From Mitsuaria sp. GD03876 (GTDB lineage Bacteria; Pseudomonadota; Gammaproteobacteria; Burkholderiales; Burkholderiaceae_C), in the NCBI RefSeq assembly GCF_029840635.1, contig NZ_JAOCCU010000017.1, forward strand, positions 1 through 64,000: a stretch of 64,000 nt of DNA, given 5' to 3'. The translations under genes and the position numbers were made by a program. Below the pieces are notes generated by a model. It was not told the origin of the DNA and ran no database searches. It was given only the letters and a program-made list of their open reading frames with translations. The stretch's first letter is position 1, and each line of letters begins with the position of its first letter. Of this stretch, positions 1 through 10,221 are shown one piece after another.

Positions 1-799
1 CGGCGCCGCCGCCGGCACGGTGGCGATGGCCCGCGGCCGCGTCGACGTCGAGGGCGGGCTGCTGCGGCTGTCGCCGGCGACGTCCGGCGTCGCGCAGCAG
101 GTGCTGGTCGCCGAAGGCCAGCGGATCAAGCGCGGCCAGACGCTGCTGACGCTGGACGGCCGGCTGGCCGACGCCGACGTGCAGGCCGCCGAGGCCGAGC
201 AGCGCGCGGCGCAGGTGCGGCTGCAGGTGCTGCGCGAGCGGCTGCCCGCGCTGCGCGGCGCCGCCGAGCGGCTGCGCAAGGCCGCGCAGGCCGGCGCGAC
301 CCAGGGCGTGCTGGCCGACGAGGCGCAGCAGAAGGTCGAGCAGGCCCAGTCGGAGGCGGCGATCGCCGAGGCCGACCTCGGCACCGCCAAGGCCCGGCTG
401 GCGCAGGCCACCGCGCGGCGCGACCAGCTGGTGCTGCGCGCGCCCGAGGACGGCGTCGTGCTGCAGGTGGCGGCGCACGCCGGCGCGCACGTGCCGTCGG
501 AAACGGCGGCGCTGGTGGTGATGCCGGCCCGCAAGCTGATCGTGCGGGCCGAGGTCAACGAGAGTTTCCTGTCGTCGATCCGCCCCGGCATGCGCGCCGT
601 GGTGCAGGGCGACGGCGAATCGGCGTCCACGCCGTTCCCCAAGGCGCGCGTGCTGCGGCTGAGCCCGCTGTTCGGCGCCAGCAAGCTGCAGGACGACCAG
701 CAGCGCGGCCCCGCGCGCACCGTCGAGTGCGTCATCGAATTCGAATCCGAACCCCAGGCCCGCGTGGGCCAGATCGTCCGAGTGAGCTTCCATGAGTAG
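1..799 (+). CDS. HlyD-family membrane fusion protein of an exporter (5' end outside window)
   Basis: The reading frame is open from base 2, so the N-terminal membrane anchor lies upstream of the window. What remains shows the membrane-fusion layout: a first lipoyl half (VEGGLLRLSP to LLTLDG), a long Ala/Glu/Gln-rich coiled-coil hairpin (about residues 60-145 of the visible part), the second lipoyl half (LRAPEDGVVLQV), and a beta-barrel ending in GQIVRVSF. Such proteins bridge an inner-membrane ABC or RND pump to the outer membrane. The stop overlaps the next start by 8 nt, so it begins or continues the operon reaching 4845. Its pump partner must lie upstream. A DevB-like ABC adaptor is the likeliest type, but this is inference. 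Confidence 0.85.
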   Translation, partial: GAAAGTVAMARGRVDVEGGLLRLSPATSGVAQQVLVAEGQRIKRGQTLLTLDGRLADADVQAAEAEQRAAQVRLQVLRERLPALRGAAERLRKAAQAGATQGVLADEAQQKVEQAQSEAAIAEADLGTAKARLAQATARRDQLVLRAPEDGVVLQVAAHAGAHVPSETAALVVMPARKLIVRAEVNESFLSSIRPGMRAVVQGDGESASTPFPKARVLRLSPLFGASKLQDDQQRGPARTVECVIEFESEPQARVGQIVRVSFHE

Positions 800-1559
800 T
801 CCCGTGCACCAGCCGACCACGCCCCCGACCTCGACCCAGGCCTCGATCCTGGCGTCCGACGACGCGACCCGTCCCGCCCCGCGGCTGGACTGGACGATCC
901 AGTGCGACTTCGACGGCACGATCAACCTGCGCGACGTCACCGACGCGCTGCTGCAGCGCTTCGGCCAGCCGGGCTGGGAAGCGCTCGAGGCCGAATGGGA
1001 GGCGGGCCGCATCGGCTCGCGCGAATGCATGCCGGGCCAGGTCGCGCTGATGGACATGAGCCGCGAGGAGTTCGACGCGGAGATCGGCGCGATGCGCATC
1101 GATCCCGGCTTCCCGGCCTTCGTCGCAGAGGCCGAGCGCCTGGGCATCCCGGTGCAGGTGATCAGCGACGGGCTGGACGTGGCGATCCGCGCGATCCTGA
1201 CGCGCCACGGCCTGGGCCACCTGCCGGTCATCGCCAACCACCTGGAGCAGGCCGCGCCGCGGCAGTGGCGGCTGCAGACGCCGTGGACCGATCCGGCCTG
1301 CGCCAAACGCAGCGCCAACTGCAAGTGCAACCGGCTGGCCGCGCAGCGCGAGACCAGCCGCCGCGTGCTGTTCGTCGGCGACGGCAGCTCGGACTTCTGC
1401 GTGTCGGGCAAGGCGGACTTCGTGCTCGCCAAGGCCCGGCTGATCGGCCATTGCGTCGACAACGACATCCCGCACGCCGCCTTCACCGACTTCGTCGAGG
1501 CGACCGCGCTGCTCACCGCCACCGTGGAGCGATTCCAGGCGGAGGAACTGGCCCAATGA
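792..1559 (+). CDS. HAD-IB family phosphatase (MtnX-like)
   Basis: 255 aa cytoplasmic HAD phosphatase. Motif I is DFDGT (residues 39-43, nucleophile Asp39), motif II is the Ser of VISDG (about 125), and the acidic motif is GDGSSD (196-201). A Cys-rich patch (CAKRSANCKC, about 170-179) precedes it, as in some MtnX-type 2,3-diketo-5-methylthiopentyl-phosphate phosphatases. No methionine-salvage neighbours are visible, so the substrate is unlikely to be that one. It overlaps the HlyD gene by 8 nt and its stop overlaps the ATG of the hydrolase (AATGA). The tight coupling suggests a dephosphorylation step in the same unknown pathway. Confidence 0.85.
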   Translation: MSSPVHQPTTPPTSTQASILASDDATRPAPRLDWTIQCDFDGTINLRDVTDALLQRFGQPGWEALEAEWEAGRIGSRECMPGQVALMDMSREEFDAEIGAMRIDPGFPAFVAEAERLGIPVQVISDGLDVAIRAILTRHGLGHLPVIANHLEQAAPRQWRLQTPWTDPACAKRSANCKCNRLAAQRETSRRVLFVGDGSSDFCVSGKADFVLAKARLIGHCVDNDIPHAAFTDFVEATALLTATVERFQAEELAQ

Positions 1560-2443
1560 CCCCGAACGAATTCCTGATGCGGGGCGAAGGCCCCAACGCG
1601 CGCACCGGCGTGCTGCTGATCCACGGCCTGTCGGGCACGCCCGCGGAGATGCGGGTGCTGGCGCGCGGCCTCAACAACGCCGGCTTCACCGTGTTCTCGG
1701 TCCAGCTGGCGGGGCACTGCGGCACGATGGAGGACCTGCTGAACTCGACCTGGGCGCAGTGGCTGGAGAGCGCCCGCGAGGGCCTGGACTGGCTGGGCGC
1801 GCAGGTGGACCGGGTCTTCGTCGGCGGCCTGTCGATGGGCTCGGTGCTGTCGCTGGCGCTGGCCGAGGAACGGCCGGCGCAGGTCGCTGGCGTGCTGGCG
1901 CTGTCGACCACCTTCCGCCATGACGGCTGGAGCATGCCGGTGTACTCGCGGCTGTCCTTCCTGATCCCGTTCCTGCGCTCGCTGGGCCTGTGCCGCGACC
2001 GCCAGTTCATGGAGCTGCCGCCCTACGGCATCAAGGACGAGGGCCTGCGCAACCGCGTGGTCGGCCAGATGCACGGCGGCGACAGCGCGGCGGCCGGCCT
2101 GCCCGGCAACCCGTGGTGGTCGGTGGCGGAGCTGCAGGCGCTGTCGTCCCACGTGCGGCGCCGGCTGGACCGCGTGCGCTCGCCCTGCCTGGTGATCCAC
2201 GCGCGCCACGACGACATCGCCAGCCTGTCCAACGCGCTCGACATCCAGCGCCGCGTGCGCCTCGCGCCGGTGGAGCTGCTGCTGCTGGACGACTGCTATC
2301 ACATGATCACGATCGACCGCGAGCGCCGCACGGTGATCGCGCGTTGCATCGAGTTCATGACCCGCATCGCGCCGCCGGCGGCGGCGGACGCGCGGCACGA
2401 GGACCTGCCGGCGCTGGCCGAGGTGGCGGGGAGCCCCGCATGA
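1556..2443 (+). CDS. alpha/beta hydrolase (carboxylesterase-like)
   Basis: 295 aa serine hydrolase. It has the oxyanion-hole LLIHGLSG (residues 20-27), nucleophile elbow GLSMGS with Ser93, acidic residue in ARHDD and catalytic His in DDCYHMI. This matches the monoglyceride-lipase/carboxylesterase subgroup with a short lid. The start is the ATG at 1556, which overlaps the previous stop; the frame runs open further upstream but that part is the shadow of the phosphatase gene. The stop overlaps the next ATG by 4 nt. Within this locus it could cleave an ester or thioester intermediate, but its substrate cannot be read from the sequence. Confidence 0.85.
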   Translation: MTPNEFLMRGEGPNARTGVLLIHGLSGTPAEMRVLARGLNNAGFTVFSVQLAGHCGTMEDLLNSTWAQWLESAREGLDWLGAQVDRVFVGGLSMGSVLSLALAEERPAQVAGVLALSTTFRHDGWSMPVYSRLSFLIPFLRSLGLCRDRQFMELPPYGIKDEGLRNRVVGQMHGGDSAAAGLPGNPWWSVAELQALSSHVRRRLDRVRSPCLVIHARHDDIASLSNALDIQRRVRLAPVELLLLDDCYHMITIDRERRTVIARCIEFMTRIAPPAAADARHEDLPALAEVAGSPA

Positions 2444-2808
2444 CACCGCTGGTGATGGTGCTCTGGATCCTCAACGTCGTGCTCGACAGCGTGGGCCAGA
2501 TCGCCTTCAAGGCGGCGGCCGCGGATCCGCGCGCGCATGCGCTGGACGGCGTCGCGCGCTGGCGCGCGATGGGCGCGCGGCCCTACCTGTGGATCGGCAT
2601 CGGCAGCTATGTCGCCGAGTTCCTGGTCTGGATCGCCTTCCTGTCGATGGTGCCGCTGTCGGACGGCGTGCTGCTGGGCTCGATCAACATCGTCGCGGTG
2701 ATGGTGCTGGGGCGCGTCCTGTTCAAGGAGAAGCTCACGCCGCTGCGCGTCACCGGCGTGGCGCTGGTGTCGATCGGCGTGGCGGTCGTCGGCCTGGGAG
2801 GGCGGTGA
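2440..2808 (+). CDS. SMR/EamA-type small membrane transporter, subunit 1
   Basis: 122 aa with four predicted membrane segments (LVMVLWILNVVLDSVGQ; YLWIGIGSYVAEFLVWIAF; DGVLLGSINIVAVMVLG; LRVTGVALVSIGVAVVGLG), the layout of the small multidrug resistance / half-size DMT superfamily. An ATGA overlap couples it to the hydrolase upstream, and a second SMR-like gene starts 1 nt after its stop. Paired SMR genes usually make an antiparallel heterodimer. The canonical SMR Glu in helix 1 is not obvious (helix 1 carries Asp in VVLDSVGQ), so ordinary cation/drug antiport is not assured. Flippase or metabolite export for the neighbouring pathway is equally possible. Confidence 0.8.
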   Translation: MTPLVMVLWILNVVLDSVGQIAFKAAAADPRAHALDGVARWRAMGARPYLWIGIGSYVAEFLVWIAFLSMVPLSDGVLLGSINIVAVMVLGRVLFKEKLTPLRVTGVALVSIGVAVVGLGGR

Positions 2809-2809
2809 G

Positions 2810-3334
2810 ATGCGGCGCTTCTACCTGCTCGGGTTCCTGCTGCTGCTGAGCTTCGACACGGTCGCGCAGCTGTGCCTGAAGTTCGTCGGCGACCAGGCGC
2901 TGCCGCTGGAGATGTCGACCGCCTGGGTCGCGCGGGTGCTCGGCGAGCCGTGGATCCTGGGCGCGCTGGCGGGCTACATCGGCGCGTTCTTCACCTGGAT
3001 GACGCTGCTCAAGCACGCGCCGATCGGGCCGGCGTTCGCCGCGTCGCACCTGGAGATCGTGACGGTGATGGGCGCCTCGGCGCTGATCTTCGGCGAGCGC
3101 CTGCATGGCGCGCAGCTGGTCGGCGCGGCGCTGATCCTGCTGGGCATCGTGGTGCTGGCGATGAGCGAGTCCGAGGACGCCGCGCATGCCGGGCAACTCC
3201 TGCGGGAGGAACCCGACGCGGACGTCGAGGCGGGTTCGGCGTCGGCATCCACGTCGACAGCGACAGCGACGTCCGCATCGGCAGCCGCGTCGCCCTCGGC
3301 ATCCGCGTCGGATCCCGCGGGGTCGCGCGCGTGA
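2810..3334 (+). CDS. SMR/EamA-type small membrane transporter, subunit 2, with Ser/Ala-rich tail
   Basis: 174 aa. The first ~115 residues form four membrane segments like the preceding protein (FYLLGFLLLLSFDTVAQ; ILGALAGYIGAFFTWM; PAFAASHLEIVTVMGASA; LVGAALILLGIVVLAM). Residues ~117-174 are an unusual hydrophilic tail made almost only of Ser, Ala, Thr and Asp, not seen in normal SMR proteins (~105-115 aa). It has the same Asp in helix 1 as its partner, supporting a heterodimer. The last codons overlap the GTG start of the DegT gene (GTGA). The tail may be non-functional drift or a cytoplasmic docking segment. Confidence 0.78.
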   Translation: MRRFYLLGFLLLLSFDTVAQLCLKFVGDQALPLEMSTAWVARVLGEPWILGALAGYIGAFFTWMTLLKHAPIGPAFAASHLEIVTVMGASALIFGERLHGAQLVGAALILLGIVVLAMSESEDAAHAGQLLREEPDADVEAGSASASTSTATATSASAAASPSASASDPAGSRA

Positions 3335-4845
3335 GCGCGCGGGCACCCGGCCGGCCTGCATCGTTCTCCGGGACGGTGCCGCCGACGGCCGGGTTGCCCC
3401 TGCTGGCCAGCGACTGGTGGCCGGGCGGCGGCGATTTCGAAGCCGCGCTCGCGCGGTTCATCGGTGTCGACGCGGTGCGGCTGTCGTGCTCCGGCACGGC
3501 CGCGTTCGTCGCGACGCTCGAGGCGCTGAAGCGCCGCTCGCCGGACCGCGATCGCGTGATCGTGCCGGCCTACACCTGCCCGCTGATGGCGCTCGCGATC
3601 GCGCATTGCGGCCTGGCGCTCGCGGTGTGCGACGTGCTGCCGGGCACGCTGGACCTGGATCCCGCGCACCTCGCGCGGCTGTGCGACGCCGACACGCTCG
3701 CCGTCGTGCCGACGCACCTGGCCGGCCGCGTGACCGACGTGGCGACCGCCTGCCGGATCGCCCGCGCCGCCGGCGCCTGGGTCATCGAGGACGCCGCGCA
3801 GGCGCTCGGCGCCCGTGTGGGCGCCGACATCGATGAAGGCGCAAGCGCACGCACAGGCGAGGGCGCCTCCGCTGAGGCCCTGCGCGAGGACCGCCGCTCC
3901 CAGGCCGTCGGCCTGCAGGGCGATGTCGGCTTCTTCAGCCTGGCGGTCGGCAAGGGGCTGTCGATCTTCGAAGGCGGCGTGCTGGTGGCGCGCGATCCGG
4001 CGCTGCGCGCCGAGATCGGCGCCCGGCTCGACGCGCAAGGCGGCCTCGGCTGGCGCGACCTGGCGTGGGACGCGCGCCGCACCGTCGAGCTGCTGGGCTA
4101 CTGGGCGCTGTACCGGCCGCGCGCGCTGGGCTGGGCCTATCGCCGGCCGCTGCGTGGCGCGCTCGCGCGCCGCGACTGGATCGCCGCCGCGGGCGACGAC
4201 TTCGATCCGCCGATCCCGCTGCATCCGGTTGGCGCCTGGCGGCGCAGCGTCGGCGCGCGCGCGCTCGAACGCCTGCCCGGGTTCCTTCAAACCACCGAGG
4301 ACCAGGCACGGCGCCGAATGAGCCAGCTGGCCGCGATCCCCGGCCTGACGCTGATCCGTGACAGCGCCGACGCCGTTGGCGCGCGAGGCACCTGGCCGGT
4401 GCTGCTGGCGCTGATGCCGACGGCGCGCGCCCGCGACGCGCTGTTGAACGCGCATTGGGGCGACGGCAGCGGCCTGGGCGTGCCCTTCGTGCACGCGCTG
4501 CCGGACTACGCCCGCTACGCGAAGGTGGTGCCGTCGATGGCGGCCAAGGAGATCCCGCACGCACGCGACCTGGCCGCGCGGGTGATCTCGATCAGCAACA
4601 GCCTCTGGCTGGACGATGCCCGCTTCGAGCAGGTGCTGGCCACCATCGTGGCGGCCATCTCGGCGGACGCTCAAAGCGGCGGGCCGGCGACTCCCACGAC
4701 CCCGGCGACCCTAGCAACCCAGGCAACCCCAGCAACCCAGGCGGCCCCAGCTACCCAGGCGGCCCCAGCAGTCCCGGCGGCCGGCGCGATGCCGGCCGGG
4801 CCGGTCACGGCCGGCGGGACAGCGCCGTCAGGATCCGCTGGTTGA
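3331..4845 (+). CDS. DegT/DnrJ/EryC1-like PLP-dependent aminotransferase with repetitive C-terminus
   Basis: 504 aa from a GTG start that overlaps the SMR stop by 4 nt. The fold-type I core is recognisable: SCSGTAAFVATL (phosphate-binding loop), VPAYTCPLMALAI, VVPTHLAGR, VIEDAAQALGA (PLP ring Asp) and the Schiff-base Lys208 in FFSLAVGKGLSIFEGG. A low-complexity insertion (~residues 168-198) sits just before the lysine, and the last ~55 residues are PATQAA-type repeats encoded by an 18-bp tandem repeat at 4714-4785. Family members transaminate keto-sugars or act on amino-acid-derived substrates. The 3' end runs 41 nt into the convergent arginase-like gene. Confidence 0.8.
   Translation: MSARAPGRPASFSGTVPPTAGLPLLASDWWPGGGDFEAALARFIGVDAVRLSCSGTAAFVATLEALKRRSPDRDRVIVPAYTCPLMALAIAHCGLALAVCDVLPGTLDLDPAHLARLCDADTLAVVPTHLAGRVTDVATACRIARAAGAWVIEDAAQALGARVGADIDEGASARTGEGASAEALREDRRSQAVGLQGDVGFFSLAVGKGLSIFEGGVLVARDPALRAEIGARLDAQGGLGWRDLAWDARRTVELLGYWALYRPRALGWAYRRPLRGALARRDWIAAAGDDFDPPIPLHPVGAWRRSVGARALERLPGFLQTTEDQARRRMSQLAAIPGLTLIRDSADAVGARGTWPVLLALMPTARARDALLNAHWGDGSGLGVPFVHALPDYARYAKVVPSMAAKEIPHARDLAARVISISNSLWLDDARFEQVLATIVAAISADAQSGGPATPTTPATLATQATPATQAAPATQAAPAVPAAGAMPAGPVTAGGTAPSGSAG
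4714..4785 (+). repeat. 18-bp tandem repeat inside the DegT-like gene
   Basis: Four consecutive 18-bp units begin at 4714, 4732, 4750 and 4768. The first three differ by only a few bases (core GCAACCCAGGCGGCCCCA); the fourth is degenerate. They encode a hexapeptide repeat (ATQAAP). They lie just before the overlap with the opposite gene. The period is a multiple of three, so copy-number change would keep the frame. Confidence 0.9.
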
Positions 4846-5704
4846 CCTCGCCCTGGCGCTGCTGCCAGGCCGCGAGCTCGGCGCCCGGCACCGGCGGCGC
4901 CTGACCGTCCGCCGCGCTCAGCCAGCGCTTCCAGCGGGTGCGGTAGTGCCAGCTGGAGACCTCCCCGCAGACATCGCTGCCGACCACGGTGCCCGCCAGC
5001 GCGGCGCAGATCGCGTCGAGGTGATGCAGCCGCATGTCGCCCTGGTCCCAGTTGGTCTGCAGCACCGCCTCGGCGAAGACGTCCTTGTCGATGCTCAGGT
5101 AGGTCGGCGCCCGGCTGTCCATCAGCGCGCGGCACAGCGCGTGGACCAGCGCGTCGAGGTCGTCGAAGGACCGGAACGCCGATCCCGCGCCCAGCCACCG
5201 CCCCCAGCGCGTGTCCACGCCGGCGCTCCAGTAGGTGAGCTTGCCCGCGCGCAGCGGCGCGAGGTAGTTCTCCCACGCGTGGCCCGGGCCGATGTCGCCC
5301 GAGGTGATGCCCGCGACATGCACATGCGCCACCTCCGGCATCAGCGCGACGCGCCGCACCCAGGAGCCGCAGTGCACGCCCCACGGGAAGCGCATGTTGT
5401 CGGGATGGTTGTCGAGCACCACCAGCCGCAGCGGCTCGGCCGAGGTCGCGCGCATCGCCGCGATGCAGCGCTGCACCAGCGGCCAGCTCAGGTGGTGGAA
5501 GTCGCCGCTGCCGAAGAACACGGTGCCGTGGTCCGCGAAGCGCGGCATGCGGCGGTCCAGGTCCTCGCGCAGCGCGCGCATGTCGCGGACGCGGCAGCCG
5601 AAGCGGTAGGTCTCGTGCGCCTCGTCGGAGAAGGGCAGGCGATGCTCCGCCGGCAGCGGCGGCACGGCGGCGTCGAAGTCCAGGACGACGGGAGGCGCGT
5701 TCAT
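4805..5704 (-). CDS. arginase-fold (ureohydrolase-like) metallohydrolase
   Basis: 299 aa. It shows the metal-ligand pattern of the arginase/agmatinase/deacetylase-fold superfamily: GDFHH (His70/71), DNHPD (Asp98, His100, Asp102) and SIDKDVF (Asp206, Asp208), which match the GxxxH, DxHxD and SxDxD signatures. Outside these motifs it is unlike classical arginases, with a conserved-looking TNWDQGDM segment where ureohydrolases carry substrate loops. The start ATG overlaps the acyltransferase stop (ATGA). It is the third gene of a minus-strand operon. A guanidino, amidine or N-acyl substrate is plausible; the product cannot be named. Confidence 0.75.
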   Translation of the reverse strand: MNAPPVVLDFDAAVPPLPAEHRLPFSDEAHETYRFGCRVRDMRALREDLDRRMPRFADHGTVFFGSGDFHHLSWPLVQRCIAAMRATSAEPLRLVVLDNHPDNMRFPWGVHCGSWVRRVALMPEVAHVHVAGITSGDIGPGHAWENYLAPLRAGKLTYWSAGVDTRWGRWLGAGSAFRSFDDLDALVHALCRALMDSRAPTYLSIDKDVFAEAVLQTNWDQGDMRLHHLDAICAALAGTVVGSDVCGEVSSWHYRTRWKRWLSAADGQAPPVPGAELAAWQQRQGEVNQRILTALSRRP

Positions 5705-6753
5705 GAGGTCTTGATCCGGTCGCTCTCGAAGTGGCGGGAGAAGCGCCGCGCGACCGCCCGCAGCAGCGGGTTGCGCACGAAGACCGCATGCCGCGTGAAG
5801 GTGAAGCGCGCGCCCAGGCTGGCCTTCACTTCCGGGTCGGTCCAGCCGGCGACGTAATGCGTGAGCCGGCGTTCGATCGCGTATTCCAGGTTCACCACCC
5901 AGCTGACGACGTAGAGGTTGAGGTCGCGCGCGGCAGGGTAGGACAGGCCGATGTACTTGTCGACCAGCCGGCCGCCCTGCTCGTAGCAGAGGTTCCATCC
6001 GACCAGCGCGTCGTCGTAGGCGCGGCGGTACTCGAAGACGACGCCGCCGCTCGCGCGGTCGCGCAGCACGCCCTCGAAGAAGGGCCGGGTCAGCTTGTCG
6101 AAGTGGATCTCGCTTTGCGCGTAGACGCCCTCGTAGAGCGCGAAGTAGGCGTCGACGATGGCCGGATGGTCGAAGTGCGCGCCGGTCGGGATGCGGCGGA
6201 TGGTGAGTTCCGCGCGGCTGCGCAGCTTGCGCCGGATGTTCTTGCGGCGGCTCGAGGAGAGGCGGGCCAGGTAGGTGTCGATGTCGTGGAAGTCGACCGC
6301 GACATAGGCCAGCGCCTGCCCCTCGACCAGGACGTAGCCGCGCCGCTCGCAGGCCTGGGCCAGCGCGCGCGCGTGGCGGTTGTCCTCGTCGAGCAGCAGC
6401 GGCGAGTCCTGCGGCAGGTCCTTCAGGATGGCCAGCGTGAAGCGGCGGCGCACGGCGGTGTCGGCCACCGCCGCGGCCAGGCCGTCGACATCGGCGTCCG
6501 CGGGCAGCGGCGCGTACTCGCTGACGGTGGTTCCGACGAACAGCGTGCGCACCGTCAACGCGCGCGACCACCACCGGAACAGCGGCAGCCGGCGCGCGGT
6601 GGCGCGCAGCGCGTCGTCGGCGGTGGTCAGCAGGTCGAACGGTGCCTCGAACGCCGGCGCGGCCAGCGTGTCCACGATGCGGAAGCCCTCCGGCGGGGCC
6701 GCGGCGAAGCGATCGAGCAGCGCCTGCGGCTCCAGCTGGTTGCGCCAGCGCAT
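5701..6753 (-). CDS. BioF2/FemAB-like N-acyltransferase (GNAT fold)
   Basis: 350 aa. A long N-terminal half precedes a GNAT-like C-terminal domain with SSSRRKNIRRKLR (about residue 215) and a strand-turn pattern ending VDKYIGLSYPAARDLNLYVVSWVVNLEYAI, typical of BioF2-like (Acetyltransf_6) and peptidoglycan FemAB-like enzymes. These join an acyl or aminoacyl group to an amine. The ATG at 6753 overlaps the aminotransferase stop by 1 nt (TGATG) and its own stop overlaps the arginase-like ATG by 4 nt, so the three genes are translationally coupled. The acyl donor is unknown. Confidence 0.78.
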   Translation of the reverse strand: MRWRNQLEPQALLDRFAAAPPEGFRIVDTLAAPAFEAPFDLLTTADDALRATARRLPLFRWWSRALTVRTLFVGTTVSEYAPLPADADVDGLAAAVADTAVRRRFTLAILKDLPQDSPLLLDEDNRHARALAQACERRGYVLVEGQALAYVAVDFHDIDTYLARLSSSRRKNIRRKLRSRAELTIRRIPTGAHFDHPAIVDAYFALYEGVYAQSEIHFDKLTRPFFEGVLRDRASGGVVFEYRRAYDDALVGWNLCYEQGGRLVDKYIGLSYPAARDLNLYVVSWVVNLEYAIERRLTHYVAGWTDPEVKASLGARFTFTRHAVFVRNPLLRAVARRFSRHFESDRIKTS

Positions 6754-8129
6754 CAGGCCTTCTTGGCGCGCGTCAGCAGCTGGTCGAGCAGCACCATCGC
6801 CTCGTCGATCTCGGCGCGGGTGATCATCAGCGAGGGCGCGAAGGTGATCACGTTCTTGTAGTAGCCGCCGACGTCCAGCACCAGGCCGCGACGCTGGCCC
6901 TGGTACTCGAGCGAGCCTTCCAGGCCGATGTCGACCATCTTGTCCAGCAGCGCGCGGTTGGGCGTGAAGCCGTCGGTGGTGCAGATCTCGGCGCGCAGCG
7001 CCAGGCCCATGCCGTCGACGTCGCCGATCTCGGGATGGCGCTTCTGCAGCTCGCGCAGGCCTTCCAGGAAGTAGGCGCCGCGTTCGCGCACCTGGGCGCC
7101 GAAGTCGATCTCGTGGGTCATCTTCATGACCTCCAGGCCGAGCGCCGTGCCCAGCGGGTTGGAGGCGAAGGTCGAGTGCGTCGAGCCGGGCGGGAAGATG
7201 GTCGGGTTGATCAGTTCCTCGCGGGCCCACAGGCCCGACAGCGCGTTCAGGCCGTTGGTCAGCGCCTTGGCGAAGACCAGCACGTCGGGCTTGACGCCGA
7301 AGTTCTCGACCGACCACAGCGTGCCGGTGCGCCAGAAGCCCATCTGGATCTCGTCCACGACCAGCAGGATGCCGTGCTGGTCCAGCACCTGCTTGAGGCC
7401 CTTGAAGAAGTTGGCCGGCGGGACGACGTAGCCGCCGGTGCCCTGGATCGGCTCGACGTAGAAGGCGGCGTACTCGCACTGGCCGGTCTTGGGGTCCCAG
7501 ATGGCGTGGTACTCGTTCTCGAACTTGCGGGCGAAGTCCTTGACGATCGCGTCCGAGTACTCCTCGGCCGTCATGCCCTTGGGGCGGCGGAAGGGGTAGG
7601 GGAAGGGGATGAACTGCGCGCGGTCGCCGAAGTGGCCGAAGCGGCGGCGGTAGCGGTAGCTGGAGGTGATGGACGAGGCGCCCAGCGTGCGGCCGTGGTA
7701 GCCGCCCTCGAAGGCGAACATCAGGCTCTTGCCGTTGCTGGCGTTGCGCACGACCTTGAGCGAGTCCTCGATCGCCTGCGCGCCGCCGACGTTGAAGTGC
7801 ACGCGGCCGGCGTTGCCCCACTTGCGCTGCGCGTCCTCGGCGATGAACTTGGCCAGTTCGATCTTGGTCGGGTGCAGGTACTGGCTGGCGACCTGGGGCA
7901 GCGTCTGGAGCTGCCGGATCATCGTTTCTTCCAGGCGCGGGTTCTTGTAGCCGAAGTTCACGGCGGAGTACCACATCTGGAGGTCCAGGTAGGGCGTGCC
8001 ATGGTCGTCGAACATGTAGCTGCCGTTGCAGTCGGTGAAGACCTTGGGCGGATTCACGTAATGGACGGTGTCCCCGTGGGAGCAGTACTTCGCTTCGTCG
8101 GCCAGCAGTTGTTCGAGGTCGAGGCTCAT
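6753..8129 (-). CDS. class III PLP-dependent aminotransferase
   Basis: 458 aa. The fold-type I, class III hallmarks are present: NVGGAQAIEDSL, EGGYHGRTLG (141-150), VEPIQGTGGY, VVDEIQMGFWRTG (Asp259 for the PLP ring) and Schiff-base Lys288 in LVFAKALTNGLN. Class III enzymes transfer omega-amino groups of ornithine, lysine, GABA or diamines. It is more like lysine-epsilon or diamine aminotransferases than classical ArgD, by inspection only. It is the first gene of the minus-strand trio and is divergent from a cationic amino acid permease, which suggests a basic amino acid or diamine substrate. There is no clear Shine-Dalgarno before the ATG. Confidence 0.88.
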   Translation of the reverse strand: MSLDLEQLLADEAKYCSHGDTVHYVNPPKVFTDCNGSYMFDDHGTPYLDLQMWYSAVNFGYKNPRLEETMIRQLQTLPQVASQYLHPTKIELAKFIAEDAQRKWGNAGRVHFNVGGAQAIEDSLKVVRNASNGKSLMFAFEGGYHGRTLGASSITSSYRYRRRFGHFGDRAQFIPFPYPFRRPKGMTAEEYSDAIVKDFARKFENEYHAIWDPKTGQCEYAAFYVEPIQGTGGYVVPPANFFKGLKQVLDQHGILLVVDEIQMGFWRTGTLWSVENFGVKPDVLVFAKALTNGLNALSGLWAREELINPTIFPPGSTHSTFASNPLGTALGLEVMKMTHEIDFGAQVRERGAYFLEGLRELQKRHPEIGDVDGMGLALRAEICTTDGFTPNRALLDKMVDIGLEGSLEYQGQRRGLVLDVGGYYKNVITFAPSLMITRAEIDEAMVLLDQLLTRAKKA

Positions 8130-8374
8130 GAAAAGTTTCTGGTTTATTGCTGAGGCGGGCGGAGTCTGAAATTCCTCTATGGAGATGCAGTCGCGAATTT
8201 GTGGAGGAAATGTGGAGGCGTGCCCCTGCGACCGAGGGGCGCCCCGGCCTGAACGCGGCCTGCACGGGGAGGGGCCGCCGGGTTGACGAAGGCGATCTGG
8301 TCCAATGCGACCCGTGTCAATTCGATGACGGTCCCGGCCCCCGCGCCTCCGACCCGCAGTACCTGGAGAAAGCC
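8130..8374. promoter_or_regulatory. divergent promoter region, aminotransferase / permease
   Basis: 245 bp between the minus-strand aminotransferase and the plus-strand permease. An AT-richer patch at 8130-8215 holds an imperfect inverted repeat, AAATTCCTC (8169-8177) and GAGGAAAT (8204-8211), which could bind a regulator of both units. The remainder (8220-8360) keeps an open frame into the permease but has coding-unlike composition and no membrane-protein features. Confidence 0.4.
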
Positions 8375-9793
8375 TTGAGCCTGTTCCGAACCAAGAATCT
8401 CGACGACCTGCTGGCGCAGGCGCGCGCGCCGGGCCACGGCCTGAAGAAGGTGCTGGGTCCGCTGGACCTGGTGCTGATCGGCATCGGCGCGATCGTCGGG
8501 ACGGGGATCTTCGTGCTGACCGGCACCGGCGCGCTGACGGCCGGGCCGGCGCTGACGGTGTCCTTCGTGATCGCGGCGCTGGCCTGCGCGTTCGCGGCGC
8601 TGTGCTACGCGGAGTTCGCCAGCTCGGTCCCGGTGGCGGGGTCGGTCTATACCTACAGCTACGCGACGCTGGGCGAGCTGGTGGCCTGGATCATCGGCTG
8701 GGACCTGATGCTGGAGTACGGGCTGGCGGTGTCGGCGGTGGCGGTGGGCTGGTCGGGCTACTTCCAGTCGCTGCTGTCGGGGCTGGGGGTGTCGCTGCCG
8801 GTGGCGCTGACGGCGGCGCCGGGCGCGGTGCCGGGGGCGCAGACCTGGTTCAACCTGCCGGCCTTCGCGATCGTGCTGGCGCTGACGGGGATGCTGTCGC
8901 TGGGAATGCGGGAGTCGAGCCGGCTCAACAACGTGATGGTGGCGGTGAAGATCGGCGTGGTGCTGCTGTTCATCGTCGTGGGCGCGCGGCACGTGCGTCC
9001 GGAAAACTGGCAGCCGTTCGCGCCGTTCGGCGTCAACGGGGTGCTGAGCGCGGCGGCGCTGGTGTTCTTCGCCTTCATCGGCTTCGACGCGGTGTCGTCG
9101 GCGGCGGAGGAGGTCAAGCGGCCGGAGCGGGACCTGCCGATCGGGATCATCGGGTCGTTGGCGGTGTGCGCGGCGCTCTACGTGGTGGTGTCGCTGATCA
9201 TGACGGGCATCGTGCCGTACCGGGAATTCCTGGGGGTGGACCATCCGGTGTCGCTGGCGCTGCAGCGGGCGGACGAGACCTGGTTCGCGGGTTTCGTCGA
9301 CCTGGGCGCGATCGTGGGGATGACGACGGTGATCCTGGTGATGGCGTATGGTCAGACGCGGATCATCTTCGCGATGTCGCGGGACGGGCTGCTGCCGCGG
9401 CGGTTGTCGGCGCTGCACCCGAGGCACGGGACGCCGTTCCTGGCGACCTGGCTGGTGGGCGGGGTGTTCGGGCTGATCGCGGCGCTGGTGCCGCTGAGCG
9501 TGCTGGCGGAGCTGATCAACATCGGCACGCTGGCGGCGTTCTGCCTGATCGCGGTGGCGGTGCTGGTGCTGCGCAAGACGCGGCCGGACCTGCCGCGGGC
9601 CTTCCGGTGCCCGGGGGTGCCGGTGGTGCCGTTGCTGGCGATCGCGTTGTGCGTGACCCTGATGACCTTCCTGCAGCCGACGACCTGGATCGCGTTCGGC
9701 GTGTGGGTGGCGCTGGGGCTGGTGGTGTACTTCGGGTATGCGCGGCGGCGGTCGTTGCTGGGGGGCGGCGGGCGCGGGGCGTCCGGGCGATGA
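8375..9793 (+). CDS. APC-superfamily cationic amino acid permease
   Basis: 472 aa from a TTG at 8375 preceded by GGAG at 8364-8367. Twelve or so hydrophobic segments are seen, starting with LGPLDLVLIGIGAIVGTGIFVLTGTG, the glycine-rich unwound helix 1 of APC amino acid transporters; a later segment reads ALVFFAFIGFDAVSSAAEEVKRPERDLP, characteristic of CAT/YfnA-type permeases. The frame extends upstream to 8147, but that stretch has no membrane or signal features and the TTG gives the usual family length. It likely imports arginine, lysine or ornithine. It is divergent from the aminotransferase operon, so it could supply that pathway. Confidence 0.88.
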   Translation: MSLFRTKNLDDLLAQARAPGHGLKKVLGPLDLVLIGIGAIVGTGIFVLTGTGALTAGPALTVSFVIAALACAFAALCYAEFASSVPVAGSVYTYSYATLGELVAWIIGWDLMLEYGLAVSAVAVGWSGYFQSLLSGLGVSLPVALTAAPGAVPGAQTWFNLPAFAIVLALTGMLSLGMRESSRLNNVMVAVKIGVVLLFIVVGARHVRPENWQPFAPFGVNGVLSAAALVFFAFIGFDAVSSAAEEVKRPERDLPIGIIGSLAVCAALYVVVSLIMTGIVPYREFLGVDHPVSLALQRADETWFAGFVDLGAIVGMTTVILVMAYGQTRIIFAMSRDGLLPRRLSALHPRHGTPFLATWLVGGVFGLIAALVPLSVLAELINIGTLAAFCLIAVAVLVLRKTRPDLPRAFRCPGVPVVPLLAIALCVTLMTFLQPTTWIAFGVWVALGLVVYFGYARRRSLLGGGGRGASGR

Positions 9794-9853: not shown

Positions 9854-9943
9854 CCTGCAGCCCCGCTGGTCTTCTCCAGACCCTTGCCGCGAGCGGCCTG
9901 CATCAGCATCGTTCCCCCGCTGACTGCTCTTGAGTGTTTCTGT

Positions 9944-9967
9944 CCCGGTACGCGCTGGCGTGCCGGG
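9944..9967 (+). promoter_or_regulatory. 10-bp hairpin in the cold-shock mRNA leader
   Basis: Left arm CCCGGTACGC (9944-9953), loop GCTG, right arm GCGTGCCGGG (9958-9967), with all ten positions paired (one G-T). It ends 38 nt before the csp ATG, with a U/A-rich stretch and an AAAGGAA ribosome binding site after it. Cold-shock leaders commonly refold with temperature; this hairpin is a candidate element. Confidence 0.55.
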
Positions 9968-10005
9968 TGATCTTCCCCATTTACCGATTTTTCAAAGGAA
10001 CAGCC

Positions 10006-10221
10006 ATGACAACCAAGAAGACTGGCACCGTGAAGTGGTTCAGCAACGACAAGGGCTTCGGCTTCATCACGCCGGCCGATGGCACGAACGACCTGTTCGC
10101 GCACCACAGCGAGATCCGCAACGACGGCGGCTACCGCACGCTGCCGGAAGGCGCGCAAGTGGAATTCGAGACGAAGGAAGGCCCGAAGGGCCAACAGGCT
10201 GCGAACATCCGCGTGATCTGA
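10006..10221 (+). CDS. CspA-family cold-shock protein
   Basis: 71 aa single cold-shock domain that binds single-stranded RNA/DNA and melts mRNA structure. RNP1 is KGFGFI (16-21) and RNP2 is DLFAHHS (29-35); aromatic residues of the TVKWFSNDKGFGF start are intact. The start at 10006 is set by AAAGGAA at 9994-10000 and the family N-terminus; longer in-frame starts fall in the leader. It is preceded by a ~150-nt structured leader and followed by a small basic-protein gene at 10321, a pairing common in betaproteobacteria. Confidence 0.97.
   Translation: MTTKKTGTVKWFSNDKGFGFITPADGTNDLFAHHSEIRNDGGYRTLPEGAQVEFETKEGPKGQQAANIRVI

Follow-up and report, generated by a model that had tools for sequence, protein, structure and literature searches.

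A conserved two-armed gene cluster possibly dedicated to an amine-bearing envelope lipid in Mitsuaria sp. GD03876 and related bacteria

Introduction

The DevBCA-HgdD pump of Anabaena heterocysts is built from a separate ATPase, FtsX-type permease, HlyD-type adaptor and outer-membrane channel, and is described as the exporter of heterocyst glycolipids (PMC6161253, PMC5985334). Two other systems couple the modification of a lipid to its translocation: MprF, which fuses a lysyl-phosphatidylglycerol synthase to a flippase, and the aminoarabinose (Arn) pathway, in which the DegT-family enzyme ArnB is associated with the two-subunit EamA-type transporter ArnE/ArnF. Here we describe a locus that partly resembles all three, found at positions 2-8129 of a 64,000-nucleotide stretch of the Mitsuaria sp. 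GD03876 genome (contig NZ_JAOCCU010000017.1, positions 1 to 64,000; this whole stretch is referred to as the window). It comprises two convergent arms, one carrying HlyD, HAD, EST, SMR1, SMR2 and DEGT, and the other AT3, ACYL and ARG. Like the Arn system, the locus pairs a DegT enzyme with an EamA-type transporter of two subunits, and its putative pump, once genes from a second contig are included, has the same separate components as DevBCA-HgdD. Unlike in DevBCA-HgdD, the pump genes are grouped with those of aminotransferases and a transferase; unlike MprF, the transferase has no fused flippase and is accompanied by AT3, HAD and EST; and unlike the Arn system, no sugar pathway was seen among the window proteins scanned.

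Both arms form one conserved system, which, we hold with moderate confidence, would make an amine-bearing envelope lipid, flip it by SMR1/SMR2 and export it through a DevBCA-like ATP-binding cassette (ABC) pump. The parts are of known kinds, and their combination appears to be undescribed in the literature searched: no description of the gene set or its product was found among the matches listed in the open-licence literature, although one may exist in a subscription paper.

Results

Two convergent arms at a contig edge

Position 1 of the window is the first base of contig C9 in an assembly of 6.36 Mb and 94 contigs, and the first gene, HlyD (2-799, forward strand), is incomplete for this reason. 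It encodes a DevB/RND-like periplasmic adaptor (PF13437, 46.8 bits) with its 5' part cut at the contig edge, and it alone lacks a start codon among the locus genes, the start and stop codons of which were checked. The same arm continues on the forward strand with HAD (792-1559), an MtnX-like HAD-IB phosphatase (TIGR01489, 84.2 bits, cut-off 81.55); EST (1556-2443), an alpha/beta hydrolase of the carboxylesterase/thioesterase type (PF12146, 65.8 bits); SMR1 (2440-2808), an ArnF/ArnE-like half transporter of the EamA type (PF00892, 29.8 bits, cut-off 28.2); SMR2 (2810-3334), a second EamA-type half transporter (PF00892, 32.4 bits, same cut-off); and DEGT (3331-4845), a pyridoxal phosphate (PLP) aminotransferase of the DegT/ArnB family (PF01041, 128.8 bits). 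On the reverse strand, AT3 (6753-8129), a class III PLP aminotransferase (PF00202, 240.3 bits), is followed by ACYL (5701-6753), a tandem-GNAT transferase with a predicted FemX/MprF-synthase fold (PF04339, 41 bits; PF13480, 37.1 bits), and ARG (4805-5704), a predicted arginase-fold hydrolase with the positions of binuclear-metal ligands (PF00491, 21.2 bits, cut-off 22).

The initial annotation of this DNA had proposed nine genes in two convergent, translationally coupled operons, and all nine are present. The junctions of the forward arm are, from 5' to 3', overlaps of 8, 4 and 4 nt, a 1-nt gap between SMR1 and SMR2, which is the sole exception to overlaps of 1-8 nt, and an overlap of 4 nt; those of the reverse arm are overlaps of 1 nt (AT3/ACYL) and 4 nt (ACYL/ARG). 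The 3' ends of both arms, in DEGT and ARG, share 41 bp. The choice of open reading frames (ORFs) in our scripts was heuristic, and scans of 8000-8600 found neither promoter nor terminator. Tandem repeats of 18 bp at 4684-4782 and 3242-3309 give DEGT and SMR2, respectively, a repetitive C-terminal tail of low complexity.

Conservation of the cluster in related genomes

One genome per species was scanned for ARG, and the best 80 by ARG similarity of the 401 tblastn-confirmed stretches were fetched; 18 of these 80 loci lack full flanks, and the identity cut-offs for calling a gene present were set by ourselves. ACYL accompanies the bait ARG at all 80 loci. The remaining genes were found at 65 (SMR2), 63 (SMR1 and EST each), 61 (AT3 and DEGT each), 48 (HAD, HlyD and the pump ATPase each) and 45 loci (the FtsX permease and the outer-membrane channel each), and all twelve are kept in 31 of the 62 loci with full flanks. 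AT3-ACYL-ARG, the set for which the initial annotation suggested a synteny search, is compact and in this order at 50 of the 80 loci. At 57 of the 80, the order DEGT-SMR2-SMR1-EST is kept and this arm converges on that of ARG, and the full nine-gene order from DEGT to the outer-membrane channel is seen at 29. The genera with the cluster include Xylophilus, Acidovorax, Paracidovorax, Variovorax, Delftia, Comamonas, Rhodanobacter, Dyella, Luteibacter and Pseudomonas (including Pseudomonas luteola); among the carriers are the laboratory strains Comamonas testosteroni ATCC 11996 and Delftia acidovorans NBRC 14950. In the order to which the strain belongs, ARG homologues were detected in 10 of 300 genomes, our own included, and one of the ten is weak (G107). 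The nine genomes in which EST matches with 188 bits or more, a threshold chosen after inspecting the list, are nine of these ten; the tenth is the weak one.

The genes of the cluster also tend to occur in the same genomes when they are not linked. Thirteen genomes with genes missing from the fetched ARG locus were searched whole. AT3, missing from 7 of the 13 loci (L079, L080, L082, L094, L106, L131 and L134), was located elsewhere in 5 of the 7 genomes, in one case on the contig of ARG at a distance of about 12 kb, and EST, missing from 9 of the 13, was located elsewhere in all nine, in two of them only some kilobases beyond the fetched stretch. We further surveyed 398 genomes of the phylum that had not been selected for the locus and that include our own, with E-value cut-offs that differ between genes: ARG was found in 16, AT3 in 25 (E <= 1e-120) and ACYL in 24 (E <= 1e-8). 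All 16 ARG genomes hold both AT3 and ACYL. AT3 and ACYL occur together in 22 of the 398 genomes, AT3 without ACYL in three (G302, G328 and G440) and ACYL without AT3 in two (G442 and G459). Fisher's exact test on contingency tables entered by hand gives p values of 8e-31 when genomes are counted and 1e-17 when genera are counted (12 shared, 13 each, of 213), which are too small because the genomes share ancestry; the pattern is nonetheless clear. The arms, treated in the initial annotation as one functional locus, thus clearly do occur together, given their convergence at 57 of 80 loci and the co-occurrence across the 398 genomes.

The ARG loci most distant from ours (L135, L136 and L137, with L138 cut by a contig end) carry HAD, AT3 at about 71% identity, EST, SMR1, SMR2, ARG and a diverged ACYL, together with two-component genes and a MipA-like protein. 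In the nine genomes with AT3 and without ARG, other gene sets appeared. Three loci have the order acyl carrier protein (ACP)-ketosynthase (KS)-HAD-AT3-EST, and a fourth, at a contig end, lacks only the ACP (L163, L164, L165 and L168 in all); a deep-branching group among the carriers of this operon may, as a guess, be Magnetococcales. HAD-AT3-EST is found in L162, L166 and L169, and in L167 there is only a more distant AT3. The ninth locus (L161:7259-15320) combines AT3, the SMR pair, EST, HAD, the full pump and a two-component system. ACYL was found by a profile search on other contigs in 6 of the 9 genomes. We read seven distant ACYL loci, one of the seven being from an ACYL-only genome, and in four of them ACYL is immediately preceded by an SMR-like gene. 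Genome G524 has two ACYL genes, a close copy with ARG and the SMR pair (L131) and a diverged one in a locus with HAD-AT3-EST (L170).

A candidate DevBCA-like pump split between two contigs

A relative's permease sequence has a single match in our genome, at the end of contig C23, and there we found an outer-membrane channel (L108:5050-6825, PF02321), an FtsX permease (L108:6822-7955, PF02687) and an ABC ATPase (L108:7952-8827, PF00005). C23 stops roughly where HlyD would start. The ends of C23 and C9 share no exact sequence overlap, and we link them because the gene order is contiguous in relatives. These three genes are likely the partners of the HlyD in the window, and would be the partner pump for which the initial annotation advised extending upstream. 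Among the NCBIfam models, the ATPase scores best on DevA (228 bits, cut-off 295.8), and DevC is the only one to match the permease at E <= 1e-10 (50.7 bits, cut-off 290.35). For the truncated HlyD, the DevB-family model TIGR02971 is second best (63.9 bits, cut-off 129). The channel scores above the cut-off of the NodT-type efflux model (219.6 bits against 210.05). Upstream of the pump genes, in 737-5031 of the same stretch (L108, G000:C23:203000-211892), we noticed genes for GlnE-like, rhombosortase-like and EamA-like proteins, named by eye.

The initial annotation also listed a paired SMR transporter. Two paired small transporters are indeed encoded, and their family is to be corrected to EamA. 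Their best NCBIfam model is ArnF, with 28 and 27 bits against a cut-off of 99, and the ArnE model gives at most 24.2 bits (cut-off 92).

Predicted folds and conserved residues of the enzymes

ACYL had been called a BioF2/FemAB-like acyltransferase. "BioF2" proved to be merely the name of a GNAT family, and the predicted model (predicted local distance difference test score, pLDDT, 90.8) matches FemX and the synthase domain of MprF, in a comparison run on listed known families in which the absence of other families is uninformative. Residues 1 to about 340 of the 350 amino acids align with the MprF synthase domain at about 13% identity, and the model has the tandem-GNAT fold of this domain. FemX and Sba18-type aminoacyl-tRNA transferases act on a peptidoglycan precursor and streptothrisamine, respectively, for which no counterpart was seen at this locus. 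We take COG3146 to be the wider family that covers the Pfam relatives of ACYL. One prediction for COG3146, as a pterin-dependent enzyme, is recorded as failed in PMC3223725.

For the residue counts, 99 loci were given and one match per locus was taken, after dropping AT3 below 50%, DEGT below 40% and KS below 38% identity. ARG matched at 93 of these loci, six being without the gene. Its predicted model (pLDDT 81.3) matches the ureohydrolases and has the arginase/deacetylase fold; the protein falls just below the PF00491 cut-off, as given above, and many of its homologues carry a precomputed PF00491 assignment. H70/H71, D98, H100, D102, D206 and D208, which by alignment we take to be the binuclear metal ligands (H; D-x-H-x-D; D-x-D), are kept in 93 of 93 matched copies. 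Unlike arginase, agmatinase and metformin hydrolase, ARG has Gly in 93 of 93 copies at the position that aligns, in a weak sequence alignment, with the Glu following the D-V motif, the guanidine-binding Glu277 of rat arginase I; the next residue is Glu in 49 copies and Asp in 44. ARG thus appears to combine the arginase fold and metal ligand positions with the loss of the guanidine-binding Glu, and its target would therefore be an amide and not the side chain of arginine. The amidino hydrolase role suggested in the initial annotation does not fit this substitution, so far as the weak alignment fixes its register, and an enzyme converting arginine to ornithine was set low among the candidates, as the guanidine-binding Glu is apparently absent.

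The catalytic residues of the other enzymes are intact in the matched copies. The DxD residues of HAD are kept in 63 of 64 matched copies, the remaining one lying outside the alignment, and the protein reaches the MtnX-like model and not the MtnX equivalog (72.1 bits, cut-off 303.2). The Asp and His of the EST triad are found in 80 of 80 matched copies and its Ser in 79, with Cys in one. A second EST-like hydrolase, 41% identical, is encoded elsewhere in our genome (G000:C67:35810-36634). DEGT, which is closest to sugar aminotransferases at low similarity, has the PLP Lys and Asp in 67 of 68 matched copies, the remaining one again outside the alignment. AT3 has the catalytic PLP Lys in 78 of 78 copies at 50% identity or more; among proteins of solved structure, those closest to it in sequence are an alanine/serine racemase and a hypothetical 4-aminobutyrate aminotransferase, from which its substrate cannot be read.

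Lipid-related companions and regulators

The product is read as a lipid mainly because genes for fatty-acid enzymes vary by lineage, while HAD, AT3, EST, ACYL and the small transporters recur. KS and ACP genes (PF00109/PF02801 and PF00550) are present in 26 of the 80 loci and a cyclopropane-synthase-like gene (PF02353, 291.2 bits) in 18, in both cases between the arms in the loci read. A fatty-acid hydroxylase (PF04116) is found in L025, with a homologue in L026, and also in 1 of the 80 loci. An MlaC gene (L162:4046-4687) directly follows the NtrC-type regulator that stands next to HAD-AT3-EST, and MipA stands beside the core in L137. Regulators similar to those of L089 and L085 occur in 29 and 11 of the 80 loci, respectively; some of these matches may be unrelated because the families are generic. 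The best model of the L025 response regulator is PmrA (237.4 bits, cut-off 330), that of L089 is AdeR followed by BaeR, and that of the L085 kinase is QseC followed by PmrB, all below their cut-offs. The two-component genes seen beside relatives have no match in the C23 stretch next to our own pump genes.

Neighbouring genes

An amino-acid permease gene (8147-9793, forward strand) diverges from AT3. The initial annotation named it a cationic amino acid permease; neither this name nor a part in the cluster is supported. The protein scores above the cut-off of the NCBIfam model for BcaP, a branched-chain transporter (725.2 bits against 690), and falls short of the cationic permease model (353.8 bits, cut-off 681.7). 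As it is present at only 1 of 80 related loci, we set it aside as a bystander and not a member of the cluster. The BcaP match begins at residue 79 of the ORF, and therefore the true start may be near 8375 (TTG). Further on, a reading frame at 9934-10221 (forward strand) resembles a cold-shock protein, as judged by eye.

Discussion

The following steps, direction of transport and regulation are those we infer for an amine-bearing envelope lipid. HAD would dephosphorylate a small head-group precursor, to which AT3 would add an amino group; in lineages with DEGT, this enzyme may add a second one. The fatty acyl chain would come from general synthesis or, where they are carried, from the dedicated ACP and KS, and EST may release or transfer it. 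ACYL would then form an amide between the amine and an acyl or aminoacyl group supplied in activated form, and ARG may cleave a C-N bond, putatively of an amide, in trimming. SMR1/SMR2, in the manner of ArnE/ArnF, would flip the lipid to the periplasmic leaflet, from which the ATPase, the FtsX permease, the HlyD adaptor and the outer-membrane channel would move it onward, with DevBCA-HgdD as precedent. The two-component regulators adjoining many copies may switch the system on, perhaps in envelope stress. The acylated amine or modified lipid foreseen in the initial annotation, with export by HlyD or SMR components, is probable in its main lines, an aminoacylated amine being a further option; the amidino hydrolase drops out of it. 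A serinol head group, made by HAD and AT3 from dihydroxyacetone phosphate, was also considered, and a literature search gave no support for it.

Several observations sit uneasily with a single lipid pathway. Some of its steps are not universal at the locus, because the pump and DEGT, ARG, and HAD are each missing from some loci: only 48 of 80 have HAD, 9 of the 25 genomes with AT3 have no ARG, and DEGT and the pump permease, adaptor and channel were not matched in L135-L137. L161 lacks ACYL, ARG and DEGT, and the ACYL profile finds no copy in its genome; in two Rudaea genomes (L094 and L106), ACYL-ARG and EST are present with no AT3 genome-wide at 1e-100, which we describe as a reduced or different version of the system. 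No SMR gene adjoins ACYL in 3 of the 7 distant loci, and EST-like hydrolases (E <= 1e-40) occur in 33 of the 300 genomes of the order, more commonly than the cluster. As for the proteins themselves, the folds nearest to ACYL are tRNA-dependent aminoacyl transferases and not acyl-ACP enzymes, and no cut-off of the ArnE or ArnF models, or of the DevA, DevB or DevC models (DevB being scored on the truncated HlyD), is reached.

The nature of the pump leaves room for a different product. Tripartite pumps of the MacB type are also credited (PMC5985334) with the export of a siderophore and of peptides, substrates that are not lipids, and the ATPase of our locus scores on the model of the darobactin exporter, below its cut-off (157.5 vs 375 bits). 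The cluster may accordingly make a small secreted metabolite, such as a modified amino acid, a polyamine or a short peptide, with the small transporters moving the amine itself. We regard this as rather unlikely, since KS, ACP, cyclopropane synthase, fatty-acid hydroxylase, MlaC and MipA adjoin the core in various lineages, and the pump is not matched at the distant ARG loci. The likeness to the Arn system points elsewhere: DEGT belongs to a sugar aminotransferase family, both SMR proteins have ArnF as their best model, and the L025 regulator scores best on PmrA, the corresponding bits and cut-off being those given above. On these grounds DEGT could supply an amino sugar whose lipid carrier is flipped by SMR1/SMR2, in a modification of lipid A or of an undecaprenyl-linked sugar. 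However, no glycosyltransferase or sugar-nucleotide enzyme was seen among the ten window proteins scanned, DEGT reaches 45.7 bits on the ArnB model against a cut-off of 631, and it is unmatched in the most distant ARG loci; we consider a modification of this kind improbable. The arms are separate transcription units facing each other, and some fetched loci lack one of them, as would be expected of two unrelated operons that converge by chance in this genome. Such an origin is scarcely credible against their convergence at 57 of 80 loci, the recovery of most missing genes elsewhere in the genomes tested and the co-occurrence across 398 genomes; a chance neighbourhood was rejected on the co-occurrence counts.

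Within the reading of the product as an amine-bearing envelope lipid, it is attractive to speculate that the locus is a split MprF, a version that we judge unlikely. ACYL would load an amino acid derived from tRNA onto a lipid aminated by HAD and AT3, the SMR pair would stand for the flippase half, ARG would trim the group so added, and the DevBCA-like pump would deliver the resulting cationic lipid to the outer membrane under control of the PmrA/BaeR type. If this is the case, the envelope lipid would be of a new kind that is widespread among bacteria, and its synthesis a new way of making the cell surface less negative.

Many hosts of the cluster belong to familiar genera from the environment and from plants, and its core extends to distant members of the phylum. 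"Unidentified aminolipids" are listed where species of such bacteria are described. If the cluster makes a cationic or amine-bearing envelope lipid, it would provide the gene set for part of these. With a transferase, a flippase and a pump for one lipid at one locus, it would also offer a tractable system for the transport of lipids other than lipopolysaccharide to the outer membrane.

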